Made by a program: the position numbers and the translations under genes
Source of the DNA: Blastococcus sp.
GTDB lineage: Bacteria > Actinomycetota > Actinomycetes > Mycobacteriales > Geodermatophilaceae
Length of the DNA stretch: 46,085 bases
Assembly: GCA_025965695.1 (NCBI GenBank)
Contig: JAOPWM010000036.1
Location: forward strand, 1 to 46,085
Direction: 5' to 3'
In this document: piece by piece, positions 28,090-36,824 of the stretch
Layout: each line of letters starts with the position of its first letter
How positions within the stretch are numbered: position 1 is the first letter of the stretch
The notes under the pieces: generated by a model
What the model was told of the DNA's origin: nothing
The model's database searches: none
Seen by the model: only the letters and a program-made list of their open reading frames with translations

Positions 28090-28530
28090 TCAGGCGCGCG
28101 TGCGGCTGGAGACGGCGGTACGGACGGGAGCCAGCGCGATCACCAGGCCGATGAGGGCCGTGGCGATGTGCAGGACGTTGTCCGCCGCGTTGATGTTGAG
28201 GAAGTCCCAGTCCTTGCCGACGGCGATCAGGCCGTAGATGAACACCGCCGCATAACCCACCGCGAGCAGCCAGCCGTAGGTCCGGGCACCGGCGAGGGTG
28301 CGGGCCAGGACCAGTCCGGCCACACCGATGAGGATGTGGACGATGTTGTGCAGCGGATTGATCATGAAGAAGAGCAGCATCTCGTGCTGCGAGTTGTCGG
28401 CGAAGTGGTCGAATCCGGTGACGAAGAAGCCGACGATCCCGACCAGCAGGTAGACCGCGCCGAAGACCAGCGCGAGAAGCTGCGGCCAGGGACGGGTCCC
28501 GGCGCCGGTGTTGTCCGCAGATGCGGCCAT
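28090..28530 (-). CDS. DUF4383 membrane protein
   Basis: 146 residues with four predicted membrane helices. Family-typical stretches are VGFFVTGFDHFA, the His-rich INPLHNIVHILIGVAGL and NAADNVLHIATALIG. DUF4383 proteins are common in Actinobacteria; the conserved His and Asn pairs in the membrane suggest a cofactor or metal site, but the function is unknown. AGGAGGA lies directly upstream of the ATG chosen; an upstream start adds 20 non-conserved residues. Confidence 0.87.
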   Translation of the reverse strand: MAASADNTGAGTRPWPQLLALVFGAVYLLVGIVGFFVTGFDHFADNSQHEMLLFFMINPLHNIVHILIGVAGLVLARTLAGARTYGWLLAVGYAAVFIYGLIAVGKDWDFLNINAADNVLHIATALIGLVIALAPVRTAVSSRTRA

Positions 28531-30398: not shown

Positions 30399-32105
30399 TC
30401 AGGCGGGGGTACGTGCCTTCAGCAGGTTGTTCTCGGTGACGGCGGCGATGCCGAGCGTCTTGTAGCCGACCTCGTCGAAGAGCACGACCAGCCGGTCGTC
30501 CTCGACCCGCATGACGACGCCGGGCCCCCACTCGCTGTGCTCGACCGGCGTCTCGACCGGGAAGGGCGTGTCGTGTTCTGCCGGCGCCGGGCGCTCCTGG
30601 GCGGTGCCGGCCGAGCAGTTGTCACAGTTCCCGCACGGTTCGTCGAGCTGTTCGCCGAAGTAGCCCAGCAGGAACTGCCGCCGGCACTCGGTCGTCTCGG
30701 CGTAGCCGCGCATCATCTCGACCCGGCTCTGGTCCACCCGCTCGTGGTGCTCGGCCAGCTCGCGCGCCGCTGCCGCTGCCTCCTCCGGCGGCGGGGCGTC
30801 CTTGGCCGGGTATGCGGCGCCGTCCTCGTCCAGGACGACTGCCGACACCTGCTCGAGCAGGTTGAGATCGCGGGCCAGCGGGGTGGCCGCGCGCCCGGTC
30901 TCCTCCCGCAGGTCCTTGACGTCGACGCCGTCCTCGATGCCCGCCGCCGCTGCAGCCTGCACCAGCCCGGCCACCTGCTGGAGCACCTCCTCCGCCGGGC
31001 TGCCGGCGGCGAAGAACCGGCGGAGGCCGAGGTCCTCCTGCCGGTAGACCAGCACGGCGAGCGCCGGCTGCCCGTCGCGTCCCGCCCGGCCAATCTCCTG
31101 GTAGTAGCTGTCGACGGAATCCGCGGGCTCGGCGTGGACGACGAACCGGGTGCCGGGCTTGTCGATGCCCATGCCGAACGCGGTGGTCGCGACGACGACG
31201 TCCAGCTCGTCGTCCATCCAGGCACGCTGGGTGTCCTCGCGCTCGGTCTTGTTCCGGCCCGCGTGGTATGGCCGGACCCGCAGCCCACGGTCGGCCAGCT
31301 GCTCGGCGATCTCCTCGGTGCCCTTCCGGGTGGCGCTGTAGACGATGCCGGGCCCGCGGCCGTCCCCGATCTCGGCGAGAACGCGGTCGAGCACCCCCTG
31401 CTGCTTGCCGTAGGCGTCGGCGTACTGGTCGACCTCCAGGCGGATCTCGGGCCGGTCGAAACCAGCGACGACGACCCGTGCCTCGCGCATCTCCAGCCGC
31501 TCGACGATCTCGGCCCGAACCGGCGGGGCGGCCGTCGCGGTGAGTGCGAGGACCGTCGGGTGCCCCAGCTGTTCGATGACACCGCCCAGCCGCAGGTAGT
31601 CCGGGCGGAAGTCGTGACCCCACGCCGAGACGCAGTGGGCCTCGTCGACCACGAACAACGCCGGCCGGGCCTCGCGGACGGCGTCCACGACCTCGGGCTT
31701 GGTGAGCTGCTCGGGGGCGAGGAAGACGAAGCGGACCGTTCCCTCACCGAGCGCATCCAGGACCTCCCGCTGGTCGCCGGCCGACATGCTGGAGTTCAGC
31801 TGGGCCGCCCGCCCGGCGCGGTCCTCGATCTCGGCCAGCCGCTCGACCTGGTCACGCTGCAGGGCGATCAGCGGTGACACGACCACGACCGGCCCGTCGA
31901 GCAACTGGCCCGCGACCTGGTAGATCGCCGTCTTGCCGGCTCCGGACGGAAGGACGGCGAGCGTGTCGGTGCCGGCCACGACCGACTGCATGGCCGCCTC
32001 CTGGCCGGGGCGGAACTCCGGAAAGCCGAGGACGTCGCGGGCGAACTCGCGGATGCGCCGCGTGCGGACCGACGCCGAATTCCCTGCCGGGTTGCCGGCC
32101 GGCAC
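30399..32105 (-). CDS. recQ: RecQ-family ATP-dependent DNA helicase
   Basis: 568 residues, 3'-5' superfamily 2 helicase. FRPGQEAA (motif 0), Walker A LPSGAGKT (52-59), VVDEAHCVSAWGHDFRPDY (DEAH plus the aromatic-rich loop), ALTATA, FGMGIDKP and QEIGRAGRDG are intact. A zinc-binding module with an upstream Cys (TECRRQF) and CGNCDNC follows. In place of a recognisable HRDC, the C-terminus ends in HSEWGPGVVMRVEDDRLVVL and GYKTL, resembling the small Tudor/SH3-like tail of UvrD/PcrA. The GTG has GAGGA ten bases upstream; an ATG at 32180 is an alternative. It is divergent from the molybdenum operon. Confidence 0.92.
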   Translation of the reverse strand: MPAGNPAGNSASVRTRRIREFARDVLGFPEFRPGQEAAMQSVVAGTDTLAVLPSGAGKTAIYQVAGQLLDGPVVVVSPLIALQRDQVERLAEIEDRAGRAAQLNSSMSAGDQREVLDALGEGTVRFVFLAPEQLTKPEVVDAVREARPALFVVDEAHCVSAWGHDFRPDYLRLGGVIEQLGHPTVLALTATAAPPVRAEIVERLEMREARVVVAGFDRPEIRLEVDQYADAYGKQQGVLDRVLAEIGDGRGPGIVYSATRKGTEEIAEQLADRGLRVRPYHAGRNKTEREDTQRAWMDDELDVVVATTAFGMGIDKPGTRFVVHAEPADSVDSYYQEIGRAGRDGQPALAVLVYRQEDLGLRRFFAAGSPAEEVLQQVAGLVQAAAAAGIEDGVDVKDLREETGRAATPLARDLNLLEQVSAVVLDEDGAAYPAKDAPPPEEAAAAARELAEHHERVDQSRVEMMRGYAETTECRRQFLLGYFGEQLDEPCGNCDNCSAGTAQERPAPAEHDTPFPVETPVEHSEWGPGVVMRVEDDRLVVLFDEVGYKTLGIAAVTENNLLKARTPA

Positions 32106-32303
32106 GTGGGTCAGGTCCTCAGGGTCGTTGTCGCGGCGTGCTCCCACCGACCGAGGCTGCCCGGCGTCTCCGATCGGCAAACCGGACGCGCACAGCGGAA
32201 CTGCTCACCATGGGTATCTCGGTGATTCTGCCGACGTGGCAGCGCGCGCCGATGCGGGCCGCCGCACCACGCGGGTGAGTGGGGAGTGGTGGACCGCACG
32301 TTA

Positions 32304-32318
32304 TTCCGCACCCGCGGA
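32304..32318. promoter_or_regulatory. Upstream operator of the HTH-Mop/mod operon
   Basis: TTCCGCACCCGCGGA, arms TCCGC/GCGGA. It differs at one base from the downstream copy, whose start is exactly 33 bp away, about three helical turns. Lies upstream of the -35 box. Confidence 0.65.
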
Positions 32319-32330
32319 GCCAGCAAGCTG

Positions 32331-32359
32331 TTGATCTTCCGCACCTGCGGATCTATGGT
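32331..32359 (+). promoter_or_regulatory. Leaderless promoter of the HTH-Mop/mod operon
   Basis: -35 TTGATC (32331-32336), exactly 17 bp spacer, -10 TATGGT (32354-32359), then six bases to the GTG. It has the most complete -35/-10 pair of the leaderless promoters in the window. Confidence 0.75.
32337..32351. promoter_or_regulatory. Downstream operator within the -35/-10 spacer
   Basis: TTCCGCACCTGCGGA with perfect 6-bp arms TCCGCA/TGCGGA. It begins the base after the -35 box and ends two bases before the -10, so occupancy would exclude RNA polymerase. Confidence 0.72.
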
Positions 32360-32365
32360 CCGCCC

Positions 32366-32758
32366 GTGCCGACCACATACCGGATCGCTGAAGCCGCCTC
32401 GCTGCTCGGCGTCAGCGACGACACCGTCCGCCGCTGGATCGACAGCGACCGTCTGCCCGCGCACCGGGAGGGCACCGGCCCGGCGGTGGTCGACGGCGCG
32501 GATCTCGCGCTCGTCGCCACTCGCCTCCGGGAGGCGCCGGAGCCGGGCACGACGCCGTCGTCGGCCCGCAACCGGCTGACCGGCATCGTCACGCGGGTCC
32601 TGCGGGACACCGTCATGGCGCAGGTGGAGATCCAGGCCGGACCCTTCCGGCTGGTCTCCCTCATGTCCCGGGAGGCGGCAGACGAACTGGGCCTCGAGGC
32701 CGGCGTCCGCGCCGTCGCGACGGTGAAGGCGACGCAGGTCAGCGTGGACGTCCCGTGA
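32366..32758 (+). CDS. HTH-Mop molybdate-responsive regulator (predicted)
   Basis: 130 residues. Residues 4-50 form a MerR/excisionase-type helix-turn-helix (YRIAEAASLLGVSDDTVRRW). Residues 66-128 form a Mop/TOBE molybdate-binding domain (ARNRLTGIVTRVLRDTVMAQ, ending VKATQVSV). DNA-binding and ligand domains in one short chain, at the head of modABC, point to a molybdate-sensing transcription factor, distinct from ModE, which carries two Mop units on a different winged helix. Mop domains assemble as oligomers, so a multimer could bridge the two operators at its own promoter. Its stop overlaps the modA start (GTGA). Repression by molybdate is inferred, not shown. Confidence 0.85.
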   Translation: MPTTYRIAEAASLLGVSDDTVRRWIDSDRLPAHREGTGPAVVDGADLALVATRLREAPEPGTTPSSARNRLTGIVTRVLRDTVMAQVEIQAGPFRLVSLMSREAADELGLEAGVRAVATVKATQVSVDVP

Positions 32759-33582
32759 AGGGGCGCGCGGCCGCTGTCGCGGCGGTGGCGCTCCTCGCGC
32801 TCGCCGGCTGCGCCGGTCCCGCCGCCTCCTCCTCGGACACCGCCACAGGCTCATCGTCGGCCGAGAGCTCTGGGAGCGGGAAGCTCACCGGCACCGTGAC
32901 CGTCTTCGCGGCCGCATCCCTGACCGACGTCTTCACCGCGCTCGGCGACCAGCTGATGGCCGACAACCCGGATCTTGAGGTGCGGTTCAACTTCGCGGGC
33001 AGTTCGGCGCTGGCCACGCAGCTCACCCAGGGCGCCCCCGCCGATGTCTTTGCCTCGGCGGACGAGGCCCAGATGGCGAAGGAAAAGGATGCCGGGCTGG
33101 CCGTGGATCCGACGGTCTTCGCCCAGAACTCGCTGATGCTCGCCGTCCCGCCGGGCAACCCGGCCCGCATCGCCCCACCGCAAGCAGCCGGCATCCCCGG
33201 CCTCGCCGACCTCGTCCCCGCAGACCTCACCCTCGCCGTCTGCGCGCCGGAGGTGCCGTGCGGGGCGGCCGCGGCGAAGGTGCTCGACTCCGCGGGTCTC
33301 AACGGTGCGCCGGACACGTACGAGGACGACGTCCGGGCGGTACTGACGAAGGTGGAGCTCGGCGAGGTCGACGCCGGGCTGGTCTACGTCTCCGACGTCC
33401 ACGCGGCCGGCGACAAAGTTCTCGCCTTCGCCTTCCGCGAGTCCTCCCTCGCGGTCAACCGGTACCCGCTCTCCGTGCTGACCGATGCCCCGAACCCGGC
33501 GGCCGCACGGGCGTTCGTCGACCTGGTGCTGTCCGACGCCGGGCAGCAGGTCCTCCGGCACGCCGGTTTCCAGGAACCGTGA
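32755..33582 (+). CDS. modA: Molybdate ABC transporter substrate-binding lipoprotein
   Basis: 275 residues. A lipoprotein signal peptide with lipobox LAGC places the lipidated Cys at 19, followed by a Ser-rich linker. The mature part has the ModA landmarks VFAAASLTDVFTAL, FNFAGSSALATQL and QGAPADVFASADEAQM, and AEVDAGLVY-like GEVDAGLVYVSDV. The oxyanion-binding Ser residues of the first two motifs are present. It delivers molybdate (perhaps also tungstate) to the permease. GTG start overlapping the regulator stop by four bases indicates translational coupling. Confidence 0.95.
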   Translation: MKGRAAAVAAVALLALAGCAGPAASSSDTATGSSSAESSGSGKLTGTVTVFAAASLTDVFTALGDQLMADNPDLEVRFNFAGSSALATQLTQGAPADVFASADEAQMAKEKDAGLAVDPTVFAQNSLMLAVPPGNPARIAPPQAAGIPGLADLVPADLTLAVCAPEVPCGAAAAKVLDSAGLNGAPDTYEDDVRAVLTKVELGEVDAGLVYVSDVHAAGDKVLAFAFRESSLAVNRYPLSVLTDAPNPAAARAFVDLVLSDAGQQVLRHAGFQEP

Positions 33583-34391
33583 CCCGGCCCCGCGAGGGCA
33601 CCGGCATCCCCACGCCACTGCTGGTCCCCGCCGGCCTGGGCATCGCCTTCCTGGTGCTGCCGGTCGTCGGCCTCCTGGTGCGGGCCCCGTGGTCGGACCT
33701 GGCGCCACAGCTCACCGCACCCGGCGTGGGCGATGCGCTGCGGCTGTCCCTCCTCTCGGCGACGGTTGCCACGCTGCTCTCGCTGCTGATGGGCGTGCCG
33801 CTGGCCTGGGTGCTCGCCCGTTCGCGGATCCGCGGCCGCAGCGTCCTGCGTGCGCTGGTGACGGTGCCGCTGGTGCTGCCGCCGGTGGTCGGCGGGGTCG
33901 CGCTGTTCCTGGTGCTGGGCAGGCAGGGGCTGCTGGGGCGCTGGCTGTTCGAGCAGTTCGACATCACGATCCCGTTCACGACCACTGCCGTCGTCATCGC
34001 CGAGACGTTCGTGGCCATGCCGTTCCTGGTGATCAGCGTCGAGGGCGCCCTGCGGGCCGCCGACGCACGGTTCGAGGACGTCGCCGCCACGCTCGGCGCC
34101 GACCGGTGGACCACCTTCCGGCGGGTCACGCTGCCGCTGGTCGCCCCGGGCGTCGCCGCGGGGGCGGTGCTCTGCTGGGCGCGTGCCCTGGGTGAGTTCG
34201 GGGCGACCATCACCTTCGCCGGCAACTTCCCAGGGACGACGCAGACGATGCCGCTGGCCGTCTACCTGGCGTTGCAGCGGGACCCCGAGGCGGCCCTCGT
34301 GCTGTCCCTCGTGCTGCTGGCCGTCTCGCTGGCCACGCTGCTCCTGCTGCGCGACCGCTGGCTGGGGCGATCAGGGGCTCCGGTCGCGTGA
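33579..34391 (+). CDS. modB: Molybdate ABC transporter permease
   Basis: 270 residues, six predicted membrane segments. The inner-membrane permease signature facing the ATPase is seen as VAATLGADRWTTFRRVTLPL with the EAA-like loop, and the sequence RALGEFGATITFAGNFPG is diagnostic of ModB. GTG overlaps the modA stop and its own stop overlaps the modC start in the same GTGA fashion. No fused ATPase domain. Confidence 0.95.
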   Translation: MTRPREGTGIPTPLLVPAGLGIAFLVLPVVGLLVRAPWSDLAPQLTAPGVGDALRLSLLSATVATLLSLLMGVPLAWVLARSRIRGRSVLRALVTVPLVLPPVVGGVALFLVLGRQGLLGRWLFEQFDITIPFTTTAVVIAETFVAMPFLVISVEGALRAADARFEDVAATLGADRWTTFRRVTLPLVAPGVAAGAVLCWARALGEFGATITFAGNFPGTTQTMPLAVYLALQRDPEAALVLSLVLLAVSLATLLLLRDRWLGRSGAPVA

Positions 34392-35440
34392 GCCTGTCGG
34401 CACGGGTCCTGGTCCGGCGCGGATCACTGGCGCTCGACGTCGAGATGGACGTCGCCGATGGCGAGGTGCTCGCCGTCCTCGGTCCCAACGGGGCGGGCAA
34501 GTCCACGCTCTTGCGAGTTCTCGCCGGGCTGCTGCCCGCCGACGGCGGCCGTGTCACCGTCGACGGCCACCCCTGGGACGACGTCCGGACGCGGACGCAC
34601 CTGCCCGCGCACCGGCGGTCGCAAGGTGTCGTCTTCCAGGACGCGCTGCTCTTCCCGCACCTGACCGTGGGGGAGAACGTCGCATTCGGGCTCCGGACAC
34701 GGGGGATGCGGAAGGCGGCTCGGGTCGAGGCGGCGGCCGGCTGGCTCGCCCGTGTCGGCCTGGCGGGCCTGGCCGATCAGCGCCCGGGACAGCTGTCCGG
34801 GGGACAGGCCCAGCGGGCGGCGCTGGCCCGGGCCCTCGTCGGCGATCCGGCGCTGCTGCTGCTCGACGAGCCGCTGTCGGCGCTGGACGCCCGCACCCGG
34901 CTCACCGTGCGGGCCGAGCTGCGACGGCACCTGGCCGAGTTCGCCGGCAGCACGGTGCTGGTGACCCATGACCCGGTGGACGCGATGGCCCTGGCCGACC
35001 GGGTCGTCGTCGTCGAGAACGGCCGCGTCGTCCAGGCCGGGACACCCGCCGAGGTGAACCGCCGCCCGCGCACCGACTACGTCGCCCGCCTCGTCGGGCT
35101 CTCGCTGCTGCCCGGCACGGGGACCGGGCGAATAGTCCGGCTCGACAGCGGGGGTGAGGTGGCAGTGGCCGAGGAGGCGGCCGGGCGGGTGTTCGCCGCC
35201 GTCCGCCCGGAGTCGGTCGCGCTCTACCTGGCCCGGCCCGACGGCAGCCCGCGCAACGTCTGGCCGGCGACCCTGGTCGGCGCGACCCCGCACGGCGCGA
35301 CGGTGCGCTGCGAACTGGCCGGCGAGGTGCCGCTGGTCGCCGACGTCACCGCGACCGCTTTCGCCGAGCTGGGACTCGTCCCCGGCGCGCCGGTCTGGGC
35401 GACCGTGAAGGCGTCCGAGGTCGCCGTCTACGCCCGCTGA
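34388..35440 (+). CDS. modC: Molybdate ABC transporter ATP-binding protein
   Basis: 350 residues. Walker A GPNGAGKST (32-40), Q-loop VVFQDALLFPHLTV, signature LSGGQ (136-140), Walker B LLLLDEPLSALD and the switch VTHDP are intact. The C-terminal third is a regulatory region that ends in a TOBE half-site (VWATVKASEVAVYA), similar to the end of the HTH-Mop protein. It energises ModB. GTG start, four-base overlap with modB. Confidence 0.95.
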   Translation: MSLSARVLVRRGSLALDVEMDVADGEVLAVLGPNGAGKSTLLRVLAGLLPADGGRVTVDGHPWDDVRTRTHLPAHRRSQGVVFQDALLFPHLTVGENVAFGLRTRGMRKAARVEAAAGWLARVGLAGLADQRPGQLSGGQAQRAALARALVGDPALLLLDEPLSALDARTRLTVRAELRRHLAEFAGSTVLVTHDPVDAMALADRVVVVENGRVVQAGTPAEVNRRPRTDYVARLVGLSLLPGTGTGRIVRLDSGGEVAVAEEAAGRVFAAVRPESVALYLARPDGSPRNVWPATLVGATPHGATVRCELAGEVPLVADVTATAFAELGLVPGAPVWATVKASEVAVYAR

Positions 35441-35441
35441 C

Positions 35442-35471
35442 GAGCGGCCGAAATGGCCATTGTGGCCGCTC
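35442..35471. terminator. Nested palindrome between modC and mocA
   Basis: Arms GAGCGGCC/GGCCGCTC (8 bp) enclose 14 nt that include the perfect octamer ATGGCCAT. It begins two bases after the modC stop and ends 15 bp before the next start. It may attenuate transcription between transporter and cofactor genes, or act as an operator. Confidence 0.55.
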
Positions 35472-35486
35472 TGGGAGGGTAGGAGG

Positions 35487-36074
35487 GTGAGCTCTCCGAT
35501 CGTCGCCGCCGTCGTCCTCGCCGCCGGTGGAGGACGCCGCTACGGGATGCCGAAGGCGCTGGTCGAGTACGAGGGCAGCCTGCTGGTCGAACGGGCGGTC
35601 CGGACGGCGACGGCGGTCTGCGACCCCGTGCTCGTCGTGCTCGGCGCCCAGGCGGTGGACGTCTGGCGGGCCGCCGACCTCGGCGGGGCCACCGTGCTGG
35701 CCAACAAGGACTGGGCGACCGGGATGGCCTCCTCGCTGCGCACCGGCCTCGACGGGTTGCGCGGGTGGCCGGGTCAGGTCGACGCCGTCCTCCTGCTGCT
35801 CGTGGACACGCCGGGCATGACCCCGGAAGCGCTGGCCCGACTGGCCGGGCACGCCTCCCCGTCCGCGCTCGCGGTCGCGACCTACGACGGGGTCCGCGGC
35901 CATCCCGTGCTGATCGGCCGGGAACACTGGGCCGGGGTGGCCGAGACCGCGACCGGTGACGAGGGCGCCCGCCGGTACCTGGCTTCGCACGACGTCACGG
36001 AGATCGACTGCACCGGCCTGGCAGATCCGACCGACCTCGACGTCCCGCCGTCCGGGGTACCTTCGGCGCCGTGA
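35487..36074 (+). CDS. mocA: MocA/MobA-like molybdenum cofactor nucleotidyltransferase
   Basis: 195 residues. The nucleotide-binding signature LAAGGGRRYGMPKALVEY is at the N-terminus and the metal-binding LLLVDTPGMTPEAL follows about 90 residues later; GHPVLIGREHW and TGDEGARRYL complete the NTP-transferase fold. It would attach CMP (MocA) or GMP (MobA) to molybdopterin. The long G-x-P form and the HPVLI segment favour the cytidylyl type used by xanthine oxidase/CO dehydrogenase-family enzymes, but family confusion is common. GGGAGG lies eight bases before the GTG. Confidence 0.85.
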   Translation: MSSPIVAAVVLAAGGGRRYGMPKALVEYEGSLLVERAVRTATAVCDPVLVVLGAQAVDVWRAADLGGATVLANKDWATGMASSLRTGLDGLRGWPGQVDAVLLLLVDTPGMTPEALARLAGHASPSALAVATYDGVRGHPVLIGREHWAGVAETATGDEGARRYLASHDVTEIDCTGLADPTDLDVPPSGVPSAP

Positions 36075-36481
36075 TCGCCCGGGTCGTCGACGAGCCGCTG
36101 TCCGTGCCCGAGCACGAGGACGCCGTGGCCGACAAGGCCGCCGGCGCCGTCGTCTCCTTCGCCGGTGTGGTCCGCGACCACGACGGCGGCCGGTCGGTGA
36201 CCGAACTCGAGTACGTCGGCCACCCCTCCGCGCCCGACGTGATCCGCGAGCTGGCGGAGGAGTTCGCCGCGCGCCCCGACGTGCACGCCGTCGCCGTCTC
36301 GCACCGGATCGGTCTGCTCGGCATCGGGGACGTCGCGCTGGCGTGTGCCGTGAGCGCGTCGCACCGCGGTCAGGCGTTCGCGACCTGCGCCGAACTCGTC
36401 GATGAGGTGAAGAAGCGGCTGCCGATCTGGAAGCGGCAGGTCTTCGCCGACGGCGAGGAGGAATGGGTGGCCTGCCCCTAG
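36071..36481 (+). CDS. moaE: Molybdopterin synthase catalytic subunit MoaE
   Basis: 136 residues, the large subunit that inserts two sulfurs from MoaD thiocarboxylate into cyclic pyranopterin. Landmarks are GAVVSFAGVVRDHDGG, LEYVGHPSAPDVI, VAVSHRIGLLGIGDVAL, SASHRGQAF and the active-site Lys in KKRLPIWKRQVFADGEEEW. GTG overlaps the preceding stop by four bases. Its partner moaD is encoded separately 2.3 kb away on the other strand beside moaA. Confidence 0.95.
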   Translation: MIARVVDEPLSVPEHEDAVADKAAGAVVSFAGVVRDHDGGRSVTELEYVGHPSAPDVIRELAEEFAARPDVHAVAVSHRIGLLGIGDVALACAVSASHRGQAFATCAELVDEVKKRLPIWKRQVFADGEEEWVACP

Positions 36482-36487
36482 GGCAGG
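36471..36487. terminator. Hairpin spanning the moaE stop codon
   Basis: CCTGCCC-CTA-GGGCAGG, a 7-bp perfect stem with a triloop. The TAG stop is partly in the loop, and the next gene on the other strand ends eight bases later, so it probably serves both. Confidence 0.6.
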
Positions 36488-36494
36488 GAGCGCG

Positions 36495-36824
36495 TCAGTG
36501 CCGCTGCTCCAACCGGGCCTCGACGAGCTTGGTGGCCCCGGCGGCGCGCGCCTCCACGTCGTCACAGCGTTGGCGGACCCGGTCGAGCATCTCGGTGTCT
36601 CCGAGCGGCATCGTCGCCAGCAGGCGTTCGGCCTGATCCACCTCTGGGGAATCGAGCACGGCATCGACCAGACGCGTGCGCGTGCCGCCAGGCAGGTGCC
36701 CGGACTCCACGTGCAGGTCGGAGTGCACGACTCCCGGCTCGTCGGTGGCATGGACTTCGGCGCTCGCCAGGGTGCGCCCGTCCGCCTTGATCAGGATCGT
36801 CTGGTCGTCGTCGGATTGCGTCAC
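36495..36824 (-). CDS. Hypothetical protein
   Basis: 109 residues, acidic and soluble, with no membrane segment and no Cys other than Cys87. The N-terminal half looks like a small beta sheet (TILIKADGRTLASAEVHATD, VVHSDLHVES); the C-terminal half is helical (LVDAVLDSPEVDQAERLLA, then CDDVEARAAGATKLVEARLE). I do not recognise a family. GGAGA lies about seven bases before the GTG. It converges on moaE and is preceded by a hairpin-rich leader. Confidence 0.75.
   Translation of the reverse strand: MTQSDDDQTILIKADGRTLASAEVHATDEPGVVHSDLHVESGHLPGGTRTRLVDAVLDSPEVDQAERLLATMPLGDTEMLDRVRQRCDDVEARAAGATKLVEARLEQRH

Follow-up and report, generated by a model that had tools for sequence, protein, structure and literature searches.

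A 46,085-nucleotide contig of Blastococcus sp. (JAOPWM010000036.1, assembly GCA_025965695.1; this whole stretch is called the window below) carries a molybdate operon that begins with the gene of a 130-residue protein, HTH-Mop, in which a helix-turn-helix (HTH) head is joined to a single Mop domain. Two similar palindromes lie in the promoter of this gene, and the question raised by the locus is whether HTH-Mop senses molybdate and acts through them and, if so, in what assembly. We consider it likely that HTH-Mop is a molybdate-responsive regulator and that its oligomer, seated on palindromes phased at 31–33 bp, acts as a repressor of mod and probably, in some genera, as an activator of a molybdenum-hydroxylase (cox) operon. 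The evidence consists of the domain architecture, the gene order, the operators and their fixed phase, three promoter layouts, and the scarcity of operator pairs where HTH-Mop is absent; from it we infer that HTH-Mop is the binder, molybdate the signal, mod repressed and cox activated, and the bridging oligomer larger than a dimer.

The HTH-Mop gene (32366..32758, plus strand) has a GTG start and is probably transcribed without a leader. It is preceded by a −35-like TTGATC (32331..32336, plus strand) and a −10-like TATGGT (32354..32359, plus strand). The proximal palindrome TTCCGCACCTGCGGA (32337..32351), centred near −21 from the start codon, fills the 17-bp spacer between them, with the −10-like element 2 bp past its end. 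The distal palindrome TTCCGCACCCGCGGA (32304..32318), centred near −54, has one mismatch and starts 33 bp upstream of the start of the proximal one. When re-read on the sequence, the promoter, the palindromes and the genes all stood where the original prediction had placed them, and in many orthologous promoters a TTG is found 6–8 bp ahead of the palindrome. Both palindromes are of the TCCGCANNTGCGGA type. The one place in the whole 4.09-Mb assembly with an exact TCCGCANNTGCGGA is the HTH-Mop promoter, and the window holds 3 matches with at most one mismatch compared with 0.25 expected (0 of 100 shuffles reached 3). Across the whole genome, the single motif with one mismatch occurred at 15 places, both operators counted, and its reversed control at 14. 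Because this is background level, single sites were not used for regulon calling; judged by these comparisons, the significant signal is the phased pair conserved across species rather than the single motif. A lone palindrome with one mismatch at 28514–28527, over the first codons of a minus-strand DUF4383 gene, is unpaired and probably due to chance.

The original prediction was to fall if the palindromes were not conserved upstream of orthologues. Their conservation proved strong, and the prediction held on this point. To count pairs we used a strict criterion (consensus TCCGCANNTGCGGA, at most 3 mismatches per site and 4 in all, spacings of 28–36 bp allowed) and a loose one (the CCGCRNNYGCGG measure with 3 mismatches in all). 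The loci compared were 56 from the window's family, namely those fetched and non-identical from 107 genomes with a match, and 98 from elsewhere (49 from the best 80 of 538 relatives, 29 best phylum-scan matches and 20 chosen). Identical HTH-Mop genes were removed (111 to 105 loci), as was one duplicate, L182 of L147 (99 to 98); all counts are uncorrected for relatedness. Under the loose criterion, a 31–33 bp pair was present at 53 of the 56 family loci, with 3–10 loci in each of ten other 3-bp spacing blocks, and at 36 of the 98 other loci, with 0–3 in the other blocks. Under the strict criterion, 52 of 105 loci had a promoter-region pair, 33 before HTH-Mop and 20 between HTH-Mop and modA, one locus having both. 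All 53 best pairs were spaced 31 (21 pairs), 32 (15) or 33 bp (17), although 28–36 bp was permitted, and the remaining 829,885 bp of the same 105 loci contained one pair. A loose scan over 24–40 bp outside the family gave 39, 15 and 5 pairs at 31, 32 and 33 bp and 1–11 at other spacings; its control was flat (2234 pairs in 613,978 bp).

The position of the pair within the promoter was less constant. Among the 56 family loci it lay only upstream of HTH-Mop in 27, only in the gap between HTH-Mop and modA in 23, at both places in 3 and at neither in 3. The proposed autoregulation would consequently apply to the window, where the pair is upstream of HTH-Mop, but cannot be generalised. In upstream-type promoters (n = 33, 7 of them outside the family), TANNNT followed the proximal palindrome by 1–5 bp in 26, and the palindrome started 28–29 bp ahead of the start codon in 24. 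This placement and the short distance to the start codon suggest that upstream-type transcripts are probably leaderless, with sites near −54 and −21. In the inter-gene type (n = 20), TANNNT abutted the second palindrome in 12 as judged by eye, and in 8 the palindrome held GCGCATGCGG, whose ATG in all 8 shares the reading frame of modA, uninterrupted by a stop codon. From the positions of TANNNT and ATG, the sites here would lie near −32 and +1, over the −35 and the start point.

These layouts bear on the direction of control. Molybdate-free HTH-Mop might instead activate mod during molybdenum starvation, acting like MerR from between −35 and −10 until molybdate releases it. A palindrome filling the −35/−10 spacer is indeed reminiscent of MerR-family sites, and the head scores 22.7 bits against MerR_1, just over the cutoff of 21.6. 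Activation of this kind is nevertheless unlikely: the 17-bp spacer is near the usual optimum, so that there is no over-long spacer to correct, and a pair over −35 and +1, as in the inter-gene type, is better suited to repression.

The molybdate operon, which the original prediction took as the target, appears not to be the sole one, since in some genera a molybdenum-hydroxylase operon carries the pair as well. A pair-pattern scan of 108 family genomes gave matches in 51 (the reversed control also matched in some), and 13 pairs away from mod were fetched (L154–L166). Six of these preceded a CoxS-type gene (L154, L155, L156, L157, L159 and L166): Pfam recognised 2Fe-2S domains at L154, L156 and L159 and molybdopterin-binding (CoxL-type) domains at L154 and L166, and tblastn recognised CoxS (78–82%) at L155, L157 and L166. 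The label 'CO dehydrogenase' reflects domain order, which other molybdenum hydroxylases share. The other seven of the 13 were dismissed as chance occurrences, L158 once Pfam had identified one of two frames as a recombinase and matched nothing in the other, and L160–L165 from the open-frame map only.

We compared 72 cox promoters, drawn from 72 of the 100 matching genomes: the 30 best matches, 40 chosen ones and two, L155 and L166, selected because of their pair; three repeated promoters were removed (75 to 72). Strict pairs were found in 21 of 75 rows, or 19 of 72 promoters after the repeats were removed, at spacings of 31–33 bp only, and there were none in 198,778 bp of control sequence. With the loose criterion, 35 of 72 had a 31–33 bp pair, and other blocks had 1–10. 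The pair was present in 18 of 19 CoxS promoters of g3 (Geodermatophilus-like; the named loci of this type are Geodermatophilus), 3 of 3 of g8, 4 of 10 of g9, 1 of 1 each of g10 and g12, 4 of 14 of g1 (the window's genus), 4 of 22 of g2 and 0 of 2 of g11; leaving out the pair-selected L155 (g3) and L166 (g9) gives 17 of 18 and 3 of 9. Several of the g1 and g2 pairs are weak, with scattered positions, and may be chance hits. The centre of the proximal palindrome was 59–60 bp ahead of the −10 start in 16 of 19 pair-bearing loci with a recognised core (16 more had no recognised core), which would put cox-type sites near −72 and −103 from the predicted starts. Class-I activators act at such an upstream promoter position. 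Because the array in g3 genomes sits there, ahead of the −10 of the CoxS/CoxL-type operon by about 60 bp, we propose that the loaded protein probably activates this operon. In some genera HTH-Mop would thus tie molybdate supply to a CO-dehydrogenase-type enzyme, and CO oxidation is ecologically weighty in such soil and desert bacteria. In the cox promoters of L154–L157 and L159 and of the window's own genome (L219, C112:900-3800), inspection by eye also revealed a block like GGTAAGCGTGGCCTAAGTCAC ahead of TTGACAGACT, with CTGCAAC repeats farther up. The own-genome promoter that shows them has no phased pair; they are possibly a site of another regulator.

The occurrence of the same motif at cox, away from HTH-Mop, could mean that the palindromes belong to another transcription factor and that HTH-Mop is merely adjacent, the more so as its binding is predicted from sequence. 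We compared mod-like loci from 13 genomes without an HTH-Mop match. A 31–33 bp pair was found at 1 of 17 (L269, 1.4 kb upstream of modB), compared with 53 of 56 and 36 of 98 loci with HTH-Mop. This control is small: contig-truncated L262–L264 had been removed (20 to 17), 5 of the loci are permeases of only 40–42% identity, L276 has a weak Mop-like match, and the 'no HTH-Mop' status is uncertain because up to 10 candidates were scored per genome in the phylum scan. In addition, the operator stays with the modA promoter where this is separate from HTH-Mop, and both targets are molybdenum functions. We regard ownership by another factor as quite improbable.

In the protein itself, Pfam HTH_17 matched residues 5–36 (38 bits, cutoff 27) and was the best Pfam head, with MerR types next, and TIGR01764 (excise) scored 40 bits (cutoff 28.8). 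A single stretch, residues 65–126 of 130, matched Pfam TOBE/Mop (53.5 bits, cutoff 22.3); the Mop model TIGR00638 gave 48.3 bits, under its cutoff of 55, and no NCBIfam equivalog cutoff was reached. We delimited a winged HTH of the Xis/RacA/BldC type at residues 4–56 (32375..32533, plus strand) and a single Mop (TOBE) domain at residues 65–128 (32558..32749, plus strand). The AlphaFold2 monomer, built with 55 homologues, had a pLDDT of 88.5 and placed the head at 4–56 and the Mop part at 69–128. In Foldseek the tail matched MopII, Tub, ModG and ModE, and the head alone matched RacA, mycobacteriophage Xis and BldC; among 15 PDB sequence matches at E ≤ 1, none covered both head and tail. A PADLOC identification as mad1 was rejected, its 29.7-bit match spanning residues 4–45 only, that is, the HTH. 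Positions S66, R68, S101, K121 and A122 of the putative oxyanion site align with S4, R6, S40, K60 and A61 of the type-2 site of Tub (PMC11980592), and in the 55 homologues S66, R68 and K121 are invariant and S101 is conserved in at least 90%. HTH-Mop therefore has a Mop fold with conserved oxyanion-ligand positions. That HTH-Mop mainly stores or buffers molybdate, with a vestigial HTH, has a parallel in single-domain Mop proteins such as Tub, which store oxyanion (PMC11980592). We consider this highly improbable, as seven HTH residues (A11, L14, V16, S17, D19, R22 and R23) are invariant in the same homologues, which are 56–92% identical to the window protein.

With transcription starts predicted in all three layouts, the 31–33 bp spacing is kept while the position of the sites in the promoter changes, and for this reason it seems best explained by the protein. 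Such a constraint fits an oligomer that bridges sites on one face of the DNA and makes the use of a Mop oligomer on DNA testable. The same phase might arise if separate HTH-Mop dimers occupied each palindrome and cooperated through the DNA or weak contacts, the spacing then being a helical-face preference without a fixed Mop oligomer. We give this a substantial chance, somewhat short of even. Upstream-type arrays of the family have two sites, with a third in 1 of 30, and BldC, among the Foldseek matches of the head, needs no Mop domain to act on DNA. However, face preference alone predicts that spacings of about 21 or 42 bp should be common, and the 19–21 and 40–42 bp blocks contained only 4 and 3 of the 56 loci in the family and 0 and 3 of the 98 elsewhere under the loose criterion. 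Moreover, the oxyanion-binding form of Tub is a hexamer built as a trimer of dimers (PMC11980592).

The number of sites in an array was analysed by counting further in-phase sites, up to 2 mismatches being allowed, first on the upstream and then on the downstream side. Third phased sites numbered 4+11 in 26 inter-gene arrays, 5+8 in 37 other arrays, 7+4 in 35 cox arrays and 1+0 in the 30 upstream-type family arrays. Non-phased blocks gave 0–4 per side, so that inter-gene and other arrays show a clear excess, and fourth phased sites were 0–3 per block and side. In Actinomadura (17 loci), the core GCANNTGC with up to one mismatch peaked at −89/−88 (10+4), −57 (6) and −25 (12), about 32 bp apart, compared with a mean of 0.37 per position. 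A position weight matrix (PWM) test showed enrichment at +31 (8 of 53). Its peak at +68 (7 of 53) was discarded because it lies within the HTH-Mop frame in upstream-type loci, and permissive counts (67 of 128) were set aside in favour of the tighter ones in view of a 4.4% background per offset. Three sites as the usual upper limit matches a trimer of dimers, which is suggestive only. The bridging of two same-face operators by a Mop oligomer, as first proposed, is compatible with the fixed spacing, but two sites appear to be the minimum; a third is frequent both in inter-gene arrays and among other actinobacteria.

In the mechanism that we propose, the Mop domains would take up molybdate (or tungstate) and form an oligomer that places pairs of Xis/BldC-type winged-HTH heads on TCCGCANNTGCGGA inverted repeats every 31–33 bp, or three helical turns; the window promoter has two such sites, and three are frequent elsewhere. 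At high molybdate, the bound array would cover the core promoter and repress the HTH-Mop-modABC-mobA-like-moaE operon; in the inter-gene layout, the repressed transcript would be the one that starts at modA. When molybdate falls, the array would open and the uptake and cofactor genes would be made, as would the sensor itself in the upstream layout. A more specific version is tentative and rather doubtful. Six Mop domains might form a hexamer of three dimers at 120 degrees, each dimer presenting one pair of HTH heads, and this molybdate-switched spool would wrap two or three palindromes, turning mod off where it lies over the promoter and recruiting polymerase to the CO-dehydrogenase-type enzyme where it lies upstream. 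As a hypothesis on its geometry, a three-site array with a repeat of about 32 bp would close into a single circle of some 95 bp, with a radius near 50 angstrom.

Several observations weigh against our interpretation. Outside the family, 62 of 98 loci had no pair by the family consensus, and eight loci of class family f6 (L169–L176, presumably Streptomyces) had no phased pair with at most 3 mismatches, L171 and L172 having 4-mismatch pairs only. Three family loci (L061, L016 and L023) also had no pair. A consensus-free test of palindrome spacing in 99 other loci was weak (3 loci at 31 bp, 0–1 elsewhere); the family consensus was then applied to count sites beyond the family. At cox, only the upstream third sites stood out (7 of 35), whereas the 4 downstream ones equalled the highest non-phased block, and the window's own genome has a CoxS-type gene with no phased pair in its promoter. 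In the protein, A122 falls outside the near-invariant columns of the 55 homologues, and the AlphaFold2 monomer had low confidence at the linker (residues 60–67) and a pTM of 0.48. The absence of ModE from the genome is weak evidence, the assembly being 81.5% complete, and the open-licence PMC literature yielded no laboratory study of HTH-Mop covering binding, ligand or expression.

HTH-Mop was found in 107 of 112 genomes of the window's family (E ≤ 1e-8); in a sample of 396 genomes from the phylum, 127 had it (E ≤ 1e-10). Nineteen of the 127 align from residue 35 on only, which leaves about 108 that include the HTH. HTH-Mop is therefore a candidate for molybdenum sensing in much of Actinomycetota, for which the open-licence literature searched describes no such sensor, and its operator code is readable. 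The closest named relatives are in Blastococcus and other Geodermatophilaceae. A ModB homologue lay 3′ of HTH-Mop on the same strand in 76 of 80 named loci; the other four were L065, L092, L105 and L113, two of them cut by contig ends. At L092 (Mycolicibacter longobardus), HTH-Mop had no mod gene match within 5 kb on each side and no recognised operator pair. Six plasmid records also matched, in which the gene was listed as 'TOBE domain-containing protein' (3) or 'helix-turn-helix transcriptional regulator' (1) or had no listed gene (2). Large genomes of f6 carried 1–4 HTH-Mop copies (4 matches in G396).

The original prediction regarded HTH-Mop as a design separate from ModE, and the HTH_17 head, the single TOBE domain and the Foldseek matches agree. 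The winged helix of ModE is of the LysR type, and the ModE box, an AT-rich palindrome, had no match in the window at up to 3 mismatches. According to PMC11980592, ModE of E. coli represses modABCD and activates moa. Like HTH-Mop, ModE thus puts a Mop-type oxyanion sensor on a DNA-binding head and controls modABC, with a double role as repressor and activator similar to that proposed here; it differs in having an HTH-9 winged helix (PMC11980592) and two Mop units, compared with one and an Xis/RacA/BldC-type head in HTH-Mop. The same paper names a 'ModE-like' class with one TOBE domain and HTH-9, and a 'TaoR-like' architecture of HTH_17, PBP-like and TOBE domains (PMC11980592). The head of the 'ModE-like' class still differs from that of HTH-Mop. 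The TaoR family, which reportedly goes back to Rajeev et al. 2019, shares with HTH-Mop an HTH_17 (excisionase-like) head in a molybdate/tungstate regulator, but its PBP-like sensor domain had no match in HTH-Mop in Pfam or NCBIfam. We set HTH-Mop apart because it fails a defining feature of each of ModE and TaoR. TunR, in which a Mop-type sensor is fused to a foreign XerC/D-like DNA-binding part, resembles HTH-Mop in this fusion and differs in the head. The storage proteins Mop, Tub and ModG have the Mop fold and oxyanion-site residues in common with HTH-Mop but no DNA-binding domain. Regulators of the Lrp/AsnC type wrap DNA as an oligomer of dimers on operators repeated about every three helical turns. 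Their operator repeat is similar and their sensor and head are different, wrapping by HTH-Mop being hypothetical. Molybdate regulators with other heads are accordingly known already (ModE, TaoR and TunR), and the architecture and operator code of HTH-Mop look like a new form of this kind of regulator. The searches extended over open-licence papers, and an earlier listing of the domain pairing may exist, for example in subscription papers such as that on TaoR.

In the GC-rich window, the genes that follow HTH-Mop on the same strand were identified by Pfam and NCBIfam profiles as modA (32755..33582; molybdate-binding protein), modB (33579..34391; permease), a modC-like ABC ATPase with a TOBE domain (34388..35440; modC_ABC 230.8 bits, under the cutoff of 285), a MobA/MocA-like nucleotidyltransferase (35487..36074; NTP_transf_3, under the MocA and NboR cutoffs) and moaE (36071..36481; molybdopterin synthase catalytic subunit), all on the plus strand. 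A RecQ-type helicase gene lies upstream and is divergent. The 4.09-Mb assembly has three TOBE matches, namely HTH-Mop, the modC of this operon and one other, and Rfam gave no match in 31800–36700. Four of the five operon junctions are GTGA overlaps. The fifth, between modC and the transferase gene, is a 46-bp gap given the GTG start at 35487, although a TTG at 35460 is also in frame. An AGCGGCC...GGCCGCT inverted repeat (35443–35470), which might act as a terminator, an attenuator or an mRNA-processing signal, lies in this only real gap of the operon.

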